Both the position numbers and the translations under genes were made by a program. 64,000 nt of DNA from the NCBI RefSeq assembly GCF_000507185.2, contig NZ_AYTM02000002.1, positions 5,119,501 to 5,183,500 of the forward strand, given 5' to 3'. The notes beneath the pieces are model-generated. The model was given only the letters and a program-made list of their open reading frames with translations. It was not told the DNA's origin and ran no database searches. Below are positions 17,866 through 27,546 of this stretch, in pieces. This DNA comes from Pseudomonas syringae KCTC 12500. Lineage in GTDB: Bacteria; Pseudomonadota; Gammaproteobacteria; Pseudomonadales; Pseudomonadaceae. How positions within the stretch are numbered: the stretch's first letter is position 1; every line of letters starts with the position of its first letter.

Positions 17866-19193
17866 ATTCGCACAAGGTTGTCTGGCAGGAAGGCATGCTG
17901 CTTCGCCCGCAGCACTTTCAGCATCATGATCGTTACTATGACGATCAGTTGCGGATTCGGACTCGGTTGGCAGGCGCCTACAACTGGGGCTTTACAGCCC
18001 TGGAAATTGATCCGCAATTTCTGGGTTCAGGGCAGATCGTGATTGCCCAGGCCTCGGGCATCCTGCCGGATGGCAGTGTCTTCGATATACGCGGCCATGA
18101 AAGTCCTTTGGCGCTGGATATTCCTCCCAATACTTCAAACGTGTCGGTGTACCTGGCACTGCCGATCATGGCAGGTAATTGCATTGAGTCGCGCAGTCAC
18201 GAACAGCCGGATGTGGTCGCACGGTTTACAAGCTACTCAACGAGCATCCGCGATTCAAACGCGGGTGAAGACCGTTCCACGCCAGTTTTGTGCGCCCGCC
18301 CAGAGTTCCGATTGTTTATGGGGGAGCCCCAGGGAGAGCACACCTACAGCATGCTTAAGGTCTGCCACATTCTGATCTGCAGTCCTGACAAGTCGCTTTC
18401 GCTGGACCTCGAGTTTTCACCTGCCTTTATCAACGCCAGCGGTTCCCGATATGTGATGTCGTGCCTGAGGGAAGTGGCAGGTCTGCTGAATCACCGTGGT
18501 GACGTGATTGCCGAACGTATCGGTGTTCGTGGTCAGGCCAGTGGCGCAGAGGCAAGCGATTTGATGATGTTGCAGCTGATCAATCGCAATGCATTGGTTT
18601 TTCAACACTATCTCAATATTCGAAGCCTCCACCCTGAAGAGCTATACCGCGCACTGCTGTCGCTGTTGGGCGAGTTATCGACATTTGGCGGTGAAAGCAG
18701 ACGTCCTCGATTGGAGGTTACTTATCAGCACAATGACCAGGGCGGCACATTCAGAGGCGTAATGTTCGAGATTCGTCAGATGCTGTCGATGGTTCTCGAA
18801 CAGCAGGCTCAGGAACTGGAGTTGCAGCCTCGACAATATGGAGTTCTGGTTTCGCCTCGGGTGGATCGTGAGCTATTGGGGGATGCCTCATTCATTATTG
18901 CTGCCCGTGCAGATTGCGATGCTGAAGAACTGCGTCTGCGACTGCCTTCGCATCTTAAAGTCGGTTCGGTAGAACGTATTCGCGAGTTGGTGAGCTTGCA
19001 TTTGCCAGGCTTACGCATCAGGCCTCTGCCTGTGGCGCCTCGGCAAATACCGTTTCATGCTGCCAAGAGCTATTTCATTCTCGATGTCGATGACCGGGAG
19101 CAGACCGGGATCGATCAGTCGGGAGGGTTCGCTTTCCATGTATCAGGGGAGTTTCCCGGTCTTGAACTGCAGTTCTGGGCGATCAGAAATTGA
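17862..19193 (+). CDS. tssK: T6SS baseplate protein TssK
   Basis: TssK trimers connect the baseplate to the TssL-TssM membrane complex. The 443-residue protein begins with the classic K-V-V-W-Q-E-G-M-L-L-R-P-Q-H-F-Q-H-H-D-R-Y block, and keeps the LPIMAGN and L-V-S-P-R-V-D-R family segments further on. It overlaps tssJ and tssL by 4 bp each. Nothing unusual in length or composition. Confidence 0.96.
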   Translation: MNSHKVVWQEGMLLRPQHFQHHDRYYDDQLRIRTRLAGAYNWGFTALEIDPQFLGSGQIVIAQASGILPDGSVFDIRGHESPLALDIPPNTSNVSVYLALPIMAGNCIESRSHEQPDVVARFTSYSTSIRDSNAGEDRSTPVLCARPEFRLFMGEPQGEHTYSMLKVCHILICSPDKSLSLDLEFSPAFINASGSRYVMSCLREVAGLLNHRGDVIAERIGVRGQASGAEASDLMMLQLINRNALVFQHYLNIRSLHPEELYRALLSLLGELSTFGGESRRPRLEVTYQHNDQGGTFRGVMFEIRQMLSMVLEQQAQELELQPRQYGVLVSPRVDRELLGDASFIIAARADCDAEELRLRLPSHLKVGSVERIRELVSLHLPGLRIRPLPVAPRQIPFHAAKSYFILDVDDREQTGIDQSGGFAFHVSGEFPGLELQFWAIRN

Positions 19194-20062
19194 ACAGGGT
19201 GGCGGATGTGCAAAGCGGTCTCGAAGATCATGCTGCGTTCGACCGGGACAATACCGAGTCGGGAAGCGGCTACTTCACCGACACCCACCACACGAATCTT
19301 TTCGAAGGTCTGCAGGAGCAGTTGCTCTGCAGCACTCGGCGAGTATCGGAAAGAAAGGCCGGTAGCCACGTCAATCCACTGGTTGCTGCAGCCAGCGAAC
19401 TGCTGGCTCAGGTGGCAAAGCTGGGCGCAGCAGATGACGTTGGGGATATCCATCTTCTGAACGTACAGCTTTCCGACCAGGTGAAACTGTTCGAAGCCAG
19501 GGCAAGGCGAAACGCGATAGCAAACGATCAAATGCTGGCCGCGCGCTATGTACTGTGTACGGTAGTGGATGAAGCTGTGCTGAACACCGTTTGGGGTAGC
19601 CAGAGTGACTGGTCGAAGATCAGTCTGCTAAGCCGCTTTCACAAGGAAACCTTCGGCGGCGAAAAATTCTTTCAACTGCTTGAAAAGCTCTCCGCAAACG
19701 CTTTCAGGCATCTCTCGATGCTCGAGTTGATGTACCTGTGCCTGGCACTCGGTTTTGAGGGGAAGTACCGCTCCCATCGTCGCAATGGCAACGAGCTGGA
19801 AGATATCCGGCATAACCTCTATCTGCAGATAAAACACGTAAGAGGCGACGTTTCGCGAACGCTTTCGCCTCACTGGCAGGGCGCGCGCTCCGGCGCAGCC
19901 GACCGGCTGCGCATTATGCCTGCGTGGCTGGTTGTGTTGTTTACCGCTATAAGCCTGACCGCGCTGTATTGCGGATTTGCCTGGGTACTCGGCGAGCAGC
20001 GTGAGGCCGTACTCAGGCCTTATCAGTCAGCGGATGCGGTAGTCATTGAGCGGCGGTCTTGA
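19190..20062 (+). CDS. tssL: T6SS inner-membrane protein TssL (DotU/IcmH), short form
   Basis: TssL sits in the inner membrane with TssM and recruits the baseplate. The 290-residue protein has a cytoplasmic domain with A-R-Y-V-L-C-T-V-V-D-E-A and W-S-K-I-S-L-L-S-R-F-H-K-E-T-F-G-G-E blocks, the L-Y-L-C-L-A-L-G-F-E-G-K-Y-R pattern, and one C-terminal membrane segment (LVVLFTAISLTALYCGFAWVL, ~245-270). There is no C-terminal OmpA-type peptidoglycan-binding domain, so this is the short form. The start is uncertain: TTG at 19190 overlaps tssK, with GTG alternatives a few codons on. Confidence 0.93.
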   Translation: MNRVADVQSGLEDHAAFDRDNTESGSGYFTDTHHTNLFEGLQEQLLCSTRRVSERKAGSHVNPLVAAASELLAQVAKLGAADDVGDIHLLNVQLSDQVKLFEARARRNAIANDQMLAARYVLCTVVDEAVLNTVWGSQSDWSKISLLSRFHKETFGGEKFFQLLEKLSANAFRHLSMLELMYLCLALGFEGKYRSHRRNGNELEDIRHNLYLQIKHVRGDVSRTLSPHWQGARSGAADRLRIMPAWLVVLFTAISLTALYCGFAWVLGEQREAVLRPYQSADAVVIERRS

Positions 20063-20063
20063 A

Positions 20064-23000
20064 ATGAGAAATGCAGTGAAAATCTTGTTAAAAAAACTCA
20101 TGACGCTATTGGGCAGCAGCTGGTTCTGGTCGCTGCTATTGGTACTGACGCTGGCTGCCTGTATCTGGATATTCGGGCCATTGCTGGCGATGGCTGATAA
20201 CAGGTTCTGGAAGAGTCCCGTTGCGCGCCTTGCAACTATCAGCATGTTGTTGCTGATTTGGGGCCTCGGGGTTGTATTCTTTAACTGGCGCCGCGGCTTG
20301 CAGAAAAGGCAGGCGGAGGAAAGCCCGGCAGGTCAGGAGCATCTGCGTAGAACTGTCGCGGTAGAAAAAGAGCGCCTGGAACTTGTGGGGCGGTTCAGGG
20401 ATGCCTTGCGCGTGCTCAAGGATTCGGACCTGTACGGCGTATTGGGTACTCGGGGCCGGAATGAGCTGCCATGGTATGCAGTGATCGGCCCCAAAGGTAG
20501 CGGCAAGACCAGTCTGCTGGATTTTTCCGGGCTCGATTTTCCCTTGGACAGGCGCGGGCGCAGGTTGACGCACGATATGCGCAGCACCAGTAGTTGTGGC
20601 TGGTATTTCACTGAGCAGGCAGTTCTGCTGGACACATCCGGGCGCTATTTTGAGCAGCCCGTGCCCGAGGTCGACGGCAGTGCATGGACCACGTTATTGG
20701 AGTTGTTGCGAGGCCGCCACCGCGCGCATCCACTCAGCGGGGTGCTGGTAACACTGCCAGTCGACACTTTGTTTGACGAGCACGACAAGCGTCTGGAGAA
20801 AATCGCCGAAGACGTGCGGGCTCGCCTGGACGACATATTTCATCAGTTGCATGTCGATGTGCCGGTTTACCTGGTACTGACCAAAGCCGACTCGGTTGCA
20901 GGCTTCGACGCCTTTTTCGATCAACTCTCCCGGGAAGAAAGTGAACAGGTCCTGGGCACTACGTTCCGGCAGGGCGAGCAAGGCAGTGACGTCGATGTTC
21001 TTGGCAAGGCGTTCGATGCCTTGCTGCAACGCCTTGGCAGTCAGGTTATCACTCGCATTCATCAGGAGCGGGACAGCCGACGCCGTGGCGAAATGCTTGA
21101 GTTCCCCAACCAGCTTGGAGGCATCGCGTATCGACTGAGCGTCTTTGTCGAGCTGGCATTTTCCGGAAATCGCTATCAGCGTGCCAGTCAGTTTCGTGGA
21201 TTTTACCTGACCCGAGCGCCGCAATTTCTTCAGAATGATCAGCCCTCTGACAGGGAAAGCGACACCGGATCACCGAACCGCTATCTCGGGAAAGCTCGGT
21301 TTATTCATGATCTGCTACGGCATGTGATTTTCCCTGAGGCCGATCTCGCGATTTTCGATAAAACAGCACGCCGAAAGATTCAGTGGCGTCAGCGGGGTAT
21401 GTGTTGCGCGGCGTTGTTGTTCTTGTCTGTGTTCGGTGTGCTGTGGGCGACCGGTTTCAGTGCCAATCATGATCGGCTGGAAAGGCTGCGTGTTCTGGGC
21501 GAGCAATGGGCCCACCAAAGATCATCACTGGGCGCCGAGGACGATCTGCTGACGGTCCTTGATAGCTTGAACACGCTTTATCTGGCGGTTCGCGTATTTC
21601 CGGAAGGCGATGAGGTCGGGCTGTATGAACGCAGTGGCCTCTATCAGGGCAAGCCTGCCAACGATGTTCTGAGGCGCACCTATCATGCGGAGCTGCAGAG
21701 GCAGTTGCTGCCACGCGTGGCCCACATGATCGAGGCGCGCATAATGGCTAGTCTGGGGGATCGCGAGCAGTTGCTGGATAGCCTGCGTGCCTACCTGATG
21801 CTGGTCAAGGACGAGCACCGGGAACCCTCTGCGCTGAAAGCGTGGGTAGCGACCGACTGGTCAGTTCGTTATATCGGTCATGCGCAGGCTCAGAACCAGC
21901 TGACTCAGCATTTCGAACGTCTGCTTGCTCAGTCCTTTGCCTACCCTGTAAACGACGCGTTAGTGGCACAGGCTCGACAGGTTCTGCGCAACGAGTCCTT
22001 TGCCAGCGTCGTTTATCGAGTATTGCGCGAAAGGGCAAGTACACTCCCGGACTACAGTCTGGCCCACCACGTCGGCCCTCAGGCAGGTTTACTGGCGGGT
22101 ACTGACTACCGAATTCCCGGGCTCTACACCCGCCATGGTTATGAGCAGTATTTCGTCACTCGTGGCACGGGTTTAGTGACCGAACTCATGCATGACAACT
22201 GGGTTCTGGGTGAAGGCGCGCAGTTCGATGCACAACAGCTGCGGGTGCTGATGGTCGAGCTGGAAAAGCTCTATTTCCGGGATTATGCCGATTATTGGGC
22301 CGAAGCGATCGGACGGGTTTCGCTGCAACCCTTCGAGGGGCCTGGTGCGGCTGCTGTGCAGATGGCCGGGCTGACGGCAGCCCATTCACCGTTGTTGCAA
22401 TTACTGATCGAAGTACGTGACAACACTCTTTTTCCGGTCCTTGCAGACAGTCTCGACGCAATGAAGGCTGAAGCTGATAAGGCTGTATCGCGACCATCGC
22501 CAGTTACTCAAGTGGCCGCGATTGGCGATAAAGTTGAGCAGACGGTGACCGTCAGTCTGCCCGGGACGGCAAAGAAATCGTTGCAGCGCCGTTTTGATCC
22601 CTTACACCGTTTACTGGACGGGGATAATGGTCCGACTCCCGAACTGATTGCCGCATTGAACGCGATCAATGAGTTGCAGATGCAAATGGCTGCTTTGGGG
22701 CGCTCAGGTCAGCCCGATCTTGCTGCCTACGAAATGGCAAAGGGACGGATGTCTGGACAGCGGGATGCACTGAGCAACCTGCGCAACGCGGCGACCGGTC
22801 TGGCGCAGCCTCTGGGCGGGTTGTTCAATACGCTTGCGGAGGACACCTGGAGCTTCGTGCTGTATCAGTCTCATCGGTACCTCAACCAGCGCTACAAGGC
22901 CGAGCTTTACAGTTTCTATGAGCAGTCTCTCGACAAGCGCTATCCGTTTCATGCACACAGCAGCAGTGATGTGGCGCTTAATGATTTTCGCGAGTTCTTC

Positions 23001-23579
23001 GGCTCGCAGGGGATAGCCGAGCGCTTCTTTGATAATTACCTGAAACCTTTCGTCAATGGTGATCCGGGGCGATACAAACTGCGCAGCATTGACGGCTACA
23101 GCCTGCCCATGAGCCGTGCTTATCTGGATCAGATGGCGGGTGTGCATCGAATCCGCAAAAGTTTCTTTGCCCATCGTACGCCAGAACCGCAGGTGCAGTT
23201 TTTCCTTGAACCCTATACGCTCGACCCAAATGTTCGCCGCGCAGAGTTCCGGCTAGGCGAGCAGTCACTGGAGTATCGGCATGGCCCCATCGTTCCGACC
23301 TTGTTCAAATGGCCTGCTGATGCTGAAGAGGGGCGTACGAGTCTGGTGATGGAAGGGATGGTTGGCAGGCCACTGGGGATTGAAAAAAACACCGGTCCCT
23401 GGTCGCTGTTTCGCCTTCTGGAGCTGATGCAGATCGAGCCTTTGAAAGGGCGCGATGTTCTGCTGCTCAAGGCCGACGTGGGCGGTATGCGCGCCAACTA
23501 TCTTTTGTCGAGCCAGCGGGCACCCAATCCGTTTGATATGAGTGCGTTGCGCGATTTTCGTATGCCTGCGCAGCTTTGA
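20064..23579 (+). CDS. tssM: T6SS inner-membrane protein TssM (IcmF)
   Basis: TssM spans from the inner membrane to TssJ and forms the trans-envelope channel. The 1171-residue protein has two N-terminal membrane segments (~12-35, ~50-75), a cytoplasmic NTPase-like domain with Walker A GPKGSGKTS (~142), a third membrane segment (~445-465) and a long periplasmic part ending in an IcmF C-terminal beta domain (~1030-1165). The ATG at 20064 follows the tssL stop by one base; the upstream TTG is less likely. It is the last gene of the rightward T6SS operon, followed by a hairpin at 23619-23646. Confidence 0.95.
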   Translation: MRNAVKILLKKLMTLLGSSWFWSLLLVLTLAACIWIFGPLLAMADNRFWKSPVARLATISMLLLIWGLGVVFFNWRRGLQKRQAEESPAGQEHLRRTVAVEKERLELVGRFRDALRVLKDSDLYGVLGTRGRNELPWYAVIGPKGSGKTSLLDFSGLDFPLDRRGRRLTHDMRSTSSCGWYFTEQAVLLDTSGRYFEQPVPEVDGSAWTTLLELLRGRHRAHPLSGVLVTLPVDTLFDEHDKRLEKIAEDVRARLDDIFHQLHVDVPVYLVLTKADSVAGFDAFFDQLSREESEQVLGTTFRQGEQGSDVDVLGKAFDALLQRLGSQVITRIHQERDSRRRGEMLEFPNQLGGIAYRLSVFVELAFSGNRYQRASQFRGFYLTRAPQFLQNDQPSDRESDTGSPNRYLGKARFIHDLLRHVIFPEADLAIFDKTARRKIQWRQRGMCCAALLFLSVFGVLWATGFSANHDRLERLRVLGEQWAHQRSSLGAEDDLLTVLDSLNTLYLAVRVFPEGDEVGLYERSGLYQGKPANDVLRRTYHAELQRQLLPRVAHMIEARIMASLGDREQLLDSLRAYLMLVKDEHREPSALKAWVATDWSVRYIGHAQAQNQLTQHFERLLAQSFAYPVNDALVAQARQVLRNESFASVVYRVLRERASTLPDYSLAHHVGPQAGLLAGTDYRIPGLYTRHGYEQYFVTRGTGLVTELMHDNWVLGEGAQFDAQQLRVLMVELEKLYFRDYADYWAEAIGRVSLQPFEGPGAAAVQMAGLTAAHSPLLQLLIEVRDNTLFPVLADSLDAMKAEADKAVSRPSPVTQVAAIGDKVEQTVTVSLPGTAKKSLQRRFDPLHRLLDGDNGPTPELIAALNAINELQMQMAALGRSGQPDLAAYEMAKGRMSGQRDALSNLRNAATGLAQPLGGLFNTLAEDTWSFVLYQSHRYLNQRYKAELYSFYEQSLDKRYPFHAHSSSDVALNDFREFFGSQGIAERFFDNYLKPFVNGDPGRYKLRSIDGYSLPMSRAYLDQMAGVHRIRKSFFAHRTPEPQVQFFLEPYTLDPNVRRAEFRLGEQSLEYRHGPIVPTLFKWPADAEEGRTSLVMEGMVGRPLGIEKNTGPWSLFRLLELMQIEPLKGRDVLLLKADVGGMRANYLLSSQRAPNPFDMSALRDFRMPAQL

Positions 23580-26678: not shown

Positions 26679-27312
26679 TCAACCGCACCCAAGCGCCAAT
26701 ACCAGCCGCTCCAGTCCGATGCCAAACCCGGCACCCTCTCGATAGGCACCGCCGCCGACCACTTGTTGCTGCGCACCCAGGCGCGAACAACGTACCTCGA
26801 AGCCGTTGCCTTCCAGGTAGTAGCTCAGGCCCCGTTTCACGGCGGTATTGAGTTCATAGTCCAGGCCCAGCGAATCCAGAAAGCCTGTGCAGATGGCCTG
26901 GCTGCGCAGCAACGCTTGCTGCGGCGACGGGCCAAGGATCTCCAGTCCCAGCTGGGTGAATTCGCGGTAGCGTCCGGCTTGCGGGCGCTCGTAGCGATAA
27001 CAGCGTGCCACGTAGAAAAACATTGCTTCACGTCGCCCCTCAAGCAGCGCTTCGCTGCGCTCCTGAAACAGCGCCGTGGCTTCGGGTATCAGGCAACAGG
27101 GGCGTCCGGCCTTGTCCTCGAAGGCCCACATCTGGCCGATGATTTCGCTGCCGCCGGCTTTTTCGATAAAGGTGTCCTGGCCCCATAAGGCCGGCACTAT
27201 CGCTTCCTCAGCTCCGGCTTCGATGAAGATAGCTCCGGAAACGGTTTTCTGTGTCACGCAGGGTTGCTGCTTCTGTTCCGGTCACGATGCGGGTTCCGCG
27301 TAGCATGGTCAT
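26679..27312 (-). pseudogene. Histidyl-tRNA-synthetase-like (HisZ-like) catalytic-core protein, frameshifted near 27215
   Basis: Two overlapping frames together encode about 210 residues of a short class II synthetase paralogue. The first frame, from ATG 27312 behind a CTGGAG site, reads M-L-R-G-T-R-I-V-T-G and R-F-R-S-Y-L-H-R-S, then stops. The second continues G-A-E-E-A-I-V-P-A-L-W-G, with class II motif 2 (R-C-Y-R-Y-E-R-P, then Y-R-E-F-T-Q-L-G-L-E) and motif 3 (G-I-G-L-E-R-L). Length 634 bp is one more than a multiple of three, consistent with one extra C in the CCGG at about 27214-27217. The anticodon-binding domain is absent, as in HisZ-like paralogues. Either a real inactivation or a sequencing error; a GTG at 27257 could still start the second frame. 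It is preceded by a His-rich leader and terminator. Confidence 0.72.
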
Positions 27313-27341
27313 GGGTGATGATCTCCAGTTTTTTCAGGCAA

Positions 27342-27365
27342 TAAAAAAGGCGCCATGGGCGCCTT
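27342..27365 (-). terminator. Intrinsic terminator of the histidine leader (attenuator)
   Basis: On the minus strand AAGGCGCC-CAT-GGCGCCTT is a perfect 8-bp stem with a 3-base loop, followed by TTTTATTG, so it is a standard Rho-independent terminator. It lies 20 bp after the stop of the His-rich leader peptide and 30 bp before the HisRS-like start, where an attenuator should be. Its 5' arm GGCGCC could alternatively pair with GGTGCT in the leader (two G-U pairs), which would prevent termination. Confidence 0.8.
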
Positions 27366-27384
27366 GGTCGGTTTCACTGATGGG

Positions 27385-27489
27385 TCAGAACGTGGATCTA
27401 TATCTGGCCAATCGATGAGCACAAGCAACCGCAGCACCTTGAAGCGGGCTGTGGTGGTGATGTCGGTTGCTTTGGGGAAATTGATTCAT
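27385..27489 (-). CDS. Histidine leader peptide (34 residues, four consecutive His codons)
   Basis: ATG 27489, with an AAGGA site 7 bases upstream, opens a 34-codon frame that begins M-N-Q-F-P-Q-S-N-R and then has His-His-His-His (CAT CAC CAC CAC) at codons 10-13, with another His at codon 25. The segments AAGCAACCG and CGGTTGCTT flank the His codons and form a perfect 9-bp stem, so ribosome stalling at the His codons would break it. A terminator follows. This is the arrangement of a histidine attenuation leader as known from his operons, here placed before a HisRS-like gene. The GNAT gene just upstream is on the same strand. Confidence 0.78.
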   Translation of the reverse strand: MNQFPQSNRHHHHSPLQGAAVACAHRLARYRSTF

Positions 27490-27546
27490 GGCTGATCCTT
27501 GCATGCTTTAACGCATCGCTCAAGTCGCGGTGTTGACAGACACGGT

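Follow-up and report, generated by a model that had tools for sequence, protein, structure and literature searches.

A candidate two-stage histidine switch, attenuator followed by +1 frameshift at a histidine codon, for a minimal HisRS-like gene of Pseudomonas syringae

A 64,000-nucleotide stretch of the genome of Pseudomonas syringae KCTC 12500 (contig NZ_AYTM02000002.1, positions 5,119,501 to 5,183,500; referred to in its entirety as the window) carries a gene for a small protein resembling histidyl-tRNA synthetase (HisRS), preceded by a histidine-rich leader open reading frame (ORF) and an intrinsic terminator. We find that this gene is split between two reading frames, and that its full-length product is reachable solely via a +1 shift of frame at the conserved sequence CTT-CAY. 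Comparison of relatives argues that a two-stage sensor of histidine-tRNA, consisting of an attenuator and then the frameshift, probably controls the production of a minimal HisRS. Coordinates are window positions throughout, and the leader, the terminator, and the HisRS-like gene all lie on the minus strand.

Results

The frame of the HisRS-like gene switches at a single, almost invariant site

No single open frame covers the HisRS-like gene. Its 29 N-terminal codons (27312-27226) are read in frame 0 and its body, from 27224 onward, in the +1 frame, in which an uninterrupted ORF spans 26679-27257. An unshifted ribosome would produce a 34-residue peptide, MTMLRGTRIVTGTEAATLRDTENRFRSYLHRSRS, ending at the stop codon at 27210-27208, and the predicted tryptic peptide that spans the frame junction of the shifted product is SYLIEAGAEEAIVPALWGQDTFIEK.

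The gene was compared across 103 loci: that of the window's own genome, 20 from congeners, two from Paraburkholderia plasmids, and 80 named loci that are the best of 92 relatives found, with some genomes represented twice. A script located the switch at CTTCAY in 101 of these, and one further locus, L104, shows it by eye; the remaining locus, L092, begins inside the gene and is uninformative. All 102 informative loci, with duplicates counted, therefore share the junction; they come from Pseudomonas, beta-proteobacteria, and two delta-type metagenome-assembled genomes (MAGs). Wider samples of 369 and 398 genomes yielded three loci beyond the window's own copy, of which L112 has the switch and L110 and L111, 39 and 42% identical, are in one frame without it. 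The non-redundant set of switch loci numbers 88, or 90 with L104 and L112.

Codon-position variation was analyzed in 81 loci that have at least five differences in a 148-column block from the second ATG and contain no N. Each frame-0 codon up to TTY varies at its third position, variation returns in the codon directly before CTT (TAT, TGG, TAC, TGT, and others), and +1-frame third positions vary from the codon after CTTC onward. The variation thus switches frame at one nearly frozen site, CGGAGC-NNN-CTT-CAY, whose first six bases resemble a Shine-Dalgarno (SD) element; the third positions of CGG and AGC show variation of 0.00 and 0.10, respectively. The CTT of the site is invariant, while CTT makes up 12.1% of the 1806 other leucine codons in the genes of the family. 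The SD-like element is weaker in a few loci (CGGGAC in L065, for example), whereas both delta-type loci have a complete GGAGG. The frame-0 stop codon directly follows CAY in most beta-proteobacterial loci and lies a few codons later in nearly all Pseudomonas copies; the signal therefore does not include a stop.

Taken singly, a copy of this gene resembles one disrupted by a one-base indel. We rejected a frameshifted pseudogene or a sequencing error, the probability of which we regard as negligible, because the junction is constant in all informative loci and third positions vary on both sides of it. Frameshifting is, from these sequence comparisons, strongly supported. Transcriptional slippage would join the frames into an identical product; however, the site contains no homopolymer, and what is conserved instead is an SD-like element, a CTT, and a histidine codon in the register of prfB. 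We consider slippage extremely improbable, and the shift presumably takes place on the ribosome.

The histidine codon at the junction is kept while the +1-frame residue changes

An exchange of CAT for CAC at the junction retains histidine in frame 0 and swaps the +1-frame residue between isoleucine and threonine (codon ATY or ACY). On a tree built by a quick method with the junction codon left out, this change occurred at least five times. In-frame homologues carry other residues at the same position (glutamate in L110 and L111, methionine in the database protein P0177, and arginine in P0239), so the protein itself does not dictate which residue stands there.

Database proteins offer an indirect view of the junction, as protein rows do not display DNA. 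The 240 proteins listed (P0001-P0240) are the top 120 from each of two sets of matches, numbering 1411 and 1805; 65 of them start too late to judge. Among the other 175, 172 have Phe-Ile or Phe-Thr at the junction, which implies NTT-CAY, and two are in one frame. As a side observation, all of the 240 except P0177 and P0239 begin in the +1 frame or later, so that these entries lack the frame-0 N-terminus.

These data bear on the possibility that the frameshift is constitutive and obligatory, as a prfB-like shift with an efficiency that CTT and the SD-like element determine, and with histidine control coming from the attenuator alone. In its favor, conservation of these two features is as strict as that of the histidine codon. 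Yet a constitutive shift leaves the frozen CAY unexplained, given that the +1 residue alternates while histidine is kept and that the four in-frame homologues carry other residues there. Moreover, one would expect little shifting at a sense codon with ample tRNA, and the leader in front of the gene has histidine codons as well. We therefore find a constitutive shift doubtful. The frozen histidine codon and the histidine leader together suggest instead that the shift depends on tRNA-His and is under histidine control.

The predicted shifted product is a minimal HisRS core

The shifted product corresponds to a HisRS catalytic core of approximately 210 residues. It scores 112.3 bits against the NCBIfam HisRS profile, the cut-off of which is 286.75, and it retains class II motifs 1-3 and the histidine and ATP residues of the core (PE, R-E-R-P-Q, Q..E, RGL-YY, and the motif 3 arginine), with residue roles as in E. 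coli HisRS. Agreement with the HisRS fold was seen for an in-frame relative. The frame-0 N-terminus is itself conserved as protein and can be aligned to the HisRS profile, and the in-frame homologue P0177 carries it fused to the body. Elsewhere in the same genome, a 432-residue open frame, presumably hisS, matches the HisRS-like query in two stretches.

Identity with HisZ was rejected, the score being 52 bits against an NCBIfam hisZ cut-off of 271.65, though many database entries are so named. In their sources, the 240 listed proteins are mostly called ATP phosphoribosyltransferase regulatory subunit or histidyl-tRNA synthetase.

A conserved histidine attenuator precedes the gene

The original prediction, made from the window's sequence, had placed a histidine attenuator before a lone HisZ/HisRS-like paralogue. 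Of this, the attenuator and the HisRS-like target are supported by the comparison of relatives, the HisZ assignment is not, and the +1 frameshift had been overlooked. The features that it described are real. The 34-codon leader with its run of CAT CAC CAC CAC is present on the minus strand with AGGA upstream, and the predicted fold joins the 9-bp arms that flank the run, AAGCAACCG with CGGTTGCTT (z = -2.37, equalled by 1 of 200 shuffles). The terminator with its T run was found, and GGTGCT can pair alternatively with GGCGCC as an antiterminator. Free minimum-energy folding of the stalled leader retains the terminator; to prevail, the antiterminator would therefore have to fold before it. No Rfam family was found in the window at the gathering cut-off, the leader giving sub-threshold matches to other families only.

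Across genera, the histidine run and the terminator persist, whereas the remainder of the leader drifts and has even moved to another frame, an outcome that passes the check suggested with the original prediction. In 88 of the 90 non-redundant loci, the gene is preceded by an ORF with at least three histidines in five codons, compared with 2.9% of dinucleotide shuffles; the exceptions are L095, with two histidines in its window, and L103, with N in its sequence. A U-tailed terminator is present in 86 of the 90 (1.4% of shuffles). Eight loci were dropped from antiterminator scoring for want of a recognizable arm, a histidine pair, or length; in 61 of the 82 scored, no more than 5 of 100 shuffles equal the pairing between the leader and the first arm of the terminator. 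The outer antiterminator pairs, GGYGCC:GGCGCC, are kept at 5 or 6 of 6 in all 30 Pseudomonas leaders (the window and 29 of 33 listed), and the five corresponding pairs in 23 to 25 of 25 leaders from outside Pseudomonas (of 36 listed). In the example loci displayed, clades differ in the sequence of the inner helix but preserve its pairing. At least six of the nine pairs of the pause hairpin are present in 28 of the 30 Pseudomonas leaders. RNAalifold gives covariation terms close to zero, since the terminator hardly varies.

Two side observations concern the leader region. In the Pseudomonas alignment rows, a CTTG approximately 20 bases before the leader TGCAAGGAT is conserved (~27510-27530, minus strand) and is possibly a promoter element. 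The delta-type MAG loci L104 and L105 have leaders of just 8 and 5 codons, MHSLHHHD and MHHHL.

Table 1. Predicted elements of the attenuator and frameshift site (window positions)
Feature	Position	Strand	Remarks
Leader ribosome site AGGA	27496..27499	-	aligned in relatives
Leader ORF	27385..27489	-	34 codons and stop; ATG at 27489; product MNQFPQSNRHHHHSPLQGAAVACAHRLARYRSTF
Pause hairpin 5' arm AAGCAACCG	27464..27472	-	predicted fold
Sensor codons CAT CAC CAC CAC	27451..27462	-	histidine run (HHHH)
Antiterminator 5' arm GGTGCT	27433..27438	-	
Pause hairpin 3' arm CGGTTGCTT	27423..27431	-	predicted fold
Antiterminator 3' arm	27358..27373	-	AACCG (inner) and GGCGCC (outer, common to terminator)
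Intrinsic terminator	27343..27365	-	stem 27365-27347, T run
HisRS-like gene ribosome site GGAG	27323..27326	-	
Frame-0 ORF	27208..27312	-	ATG 27312; N-terminal part of HisRS-like protein; five further codons after CTT, then stop
SD-like stimulator CGGAGC	27232..27237	-	register as in own prfB
Slippery P-site codon CTT	27226..27228	-	81/81 loci
A-site histidine codon CAT (hungry codon)	27223..27225	-	CAT 76, CAC 5 of 81 loci
+1-frame body, with stop	26679..27224	-	HisRS-like protein

Distribution and surroundings

The gene is present in 21 of 298 genomes of the genus (E <= 1e-30), and three Paraburkholderia plasmid records match it (window 26679-27312). The patchy distribution and the plasmid records suggest horizontal transfer. 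Among the non-redundant named loci, gene neighbors are not conserved across groups: the widest family of neighboring ORFs covers 9 loci, all from Pseudomonas, and families found between groups cover at most 6.

In L111, an ORF beginning MEGIVFVGIQASGKTTFYKRNYFDTHVRIGLDMLK lies directly behind the in-frame HisRS-like cousin, at approximately base 2029 of the reverse complement. It looks like a P-loop kinase and perhaps forms one operon with the HisRS-like gene. Elsewhere in the window, the type VI secretion genes TssL (DotU) and TssM (IcmF) lie at 19190-23579 on the plus strand.

Discussion

A proposed two-stage mechanism

The comparison supports the conservation of the leader, the terminator, the frame switch and its site, and, through an in-frame relative, the fold. 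On this basis, we propose that scarcity of charged tRNA-His would be sensed at two points, in transcription and by the ribosome at CTT-CAY. In the first stage, a ribosome with enough charged tRNA-His would clear the leader and allow the terminator to form, and one stalled on the histidine run would allow GGYGCC to pair with the first arm of the terminator, so that transcription could proceed. In the second stage, translation would start at 27312 in frame 0 and arrive at CTT-CAT. With enough His-tRNA, CAT would be decoded and the early stop would release the 34-residue peptide. With His-tRNA scarce, the ribosome would wait at CAT while the SD-like CGGAGC pulls the mRNA, as in prfB; peptidyl-tRNA-Leu would slip from CTT to TTC, and translation in the +1 frame would yield the 210-residue catalytic core. 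The tRNA-Leu that reads CTT presumably has the anticodon GAG and can re-pair with TTC.

We cautiously favor the view that these stages form an AND gate built on a natural, conserved hungry-codon frameshift, in which uncharged tRNA-His both relieves the attenuator and shifts the ribosome, and in which the minimal HisRS sustains the charging of tRNA-His during failure or inhibition of the housekeeping enzyme. Under such a failure, the product may make histidyl-adenylate or charge tRNA-His. Its candidate jobs are those of a backup HisRS, a histidine sensor, and an adenylate donor.

Several observations weigh against the two-stage sensor. An extra HisRS would not be obviously helpful if histidine itself is short. 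L110 and L111 have no shift, which shows that the family can do without it; L111, judged by eye, nevertheless combines a histidine-rich leader with a terminator, so attenuation can exist without frameshifting. One of the 173 apparently shifted database proteins has, at the protein level, Phe-Ser at the junction, a misfit with CAY. The motif NGGRGNNNNCTTCAY is not enriched in the window's own genome (28 occurrences compared with 27 for the reversed control), and the predicted SD-like pairing is -5.8 kcal/mol here compared with -9.9 kcal/mol in the genome's own prfB. The RNAalifold consensus contains the terminator, with a weak short hairpin added in Pseudomonas, and lacks the pause hairpin. No U-tailed terminator was found in L072, L094, L104, or L105; L104 and L105 do have histidine leaders, though very short ones, and with the terminator also missing, control at these two loci may act on translation. 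Lastly, the open +1 frame contains a GTG or TTG (in one case an ATG) before the junction in 42 of the 90 loci.

This last observation, together with a GTG 11 codons before the junction in P. syringae-like copies and with database proteins of approximately 150-230 residues that begin near the junction, would fit an internal +1-frame start that yields the body as a separate protein, as annotated, and leaves the frame-0 piece as a second leader peptide. However, the other 48 loci have no ATG, GTG, or TTG before the junction, and their first downstream start lies 9-31 residues into the body. The protein-level conservation of the frame-0 N-terminus, its alignment to the HisRS profile, and its fusion to the body in P0177 likewise argue against a separate start, which we judge very unlikely.

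The family is a conserved candidate for hungry-codon frameshifting that makes a protein. If the two-stage sensor is correct, the prfB design may be general, such that any scarce A-site decoder could drive a shift of this type, and similar switches may exist in other synthetase paralogues annotated as truncated genes. The comparison also reveals that minimal HisRS cores form a family that is widespread and misannotated.

Comparison with known systems

The protein shares its catalytic-core fold and motifs 1-3 with HisRS (TIGR00442; PDB 1adj, 1kmm). It differs in lacking the insertion domain and the anticodon-binding domain, in its length (210 compared with approximately 420 residues), and in having RGLSYY in place of RGLDYY.

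The site most closely resembles that of prfB. The host's prfB site, CGGGGG-TAT-CTT-TGA, has the same layout, with UGA where the histidine codon stands here: in both, an SD-like element lies 3 nt before a P-site CTT in an identical register, and a +1-frame body follows a short frame-0 start. In prfB, as described in passages of a 2016 review (PMC5009743), shortage of the A-site factor triggers the +1 shift, and the A-site decoder thereby regulates itself. Here the SD-like element usually ends in GGAGC, the A site is CAY in 81 of 81 loci, and the factor sensed would be His-tRNA. The site would work like that of prfB but is not a member of the prfB-type class, because its A site holds CAY and not a UGA stop. 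Term searches in the text of a published frameshift survey (PMC3711429) gave no HisRS or HisZ programmed-frameshift cluster; it lists one cluster simply as "tRNA synthetase", of class PV, which may overlap with the present family.

Hungry-codon frameshifting was described in E. coli starvation studies, and passages of the same review state that no example was known in which it makes a trans-frame protein for starvation (PMC5009743). We recognized no later example in the open-access literature, judged by titles, abstracts, and some passages. The HisRS-like site would share with those studies a slip beside an A-site codon whose tRNA is uncharged; unlike the sites studied there, it is natural, conserved, and coupled to the production of a protein.

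Transcription attenuators with histidine leader peptides are known from his operons, and the present leader shares with them a histidine-rich peptide, a terminator, and an antiterminator. By itself, this attenuator would be ordinary, because histidine leader-peptide attenuators have already been predicted before hisZ and the hisS paralogue hisS* in bacilli (PMC2965389). The difference lies in the target, a minimal HisRS core with a second histidine-codon element inside its own coding sequence.
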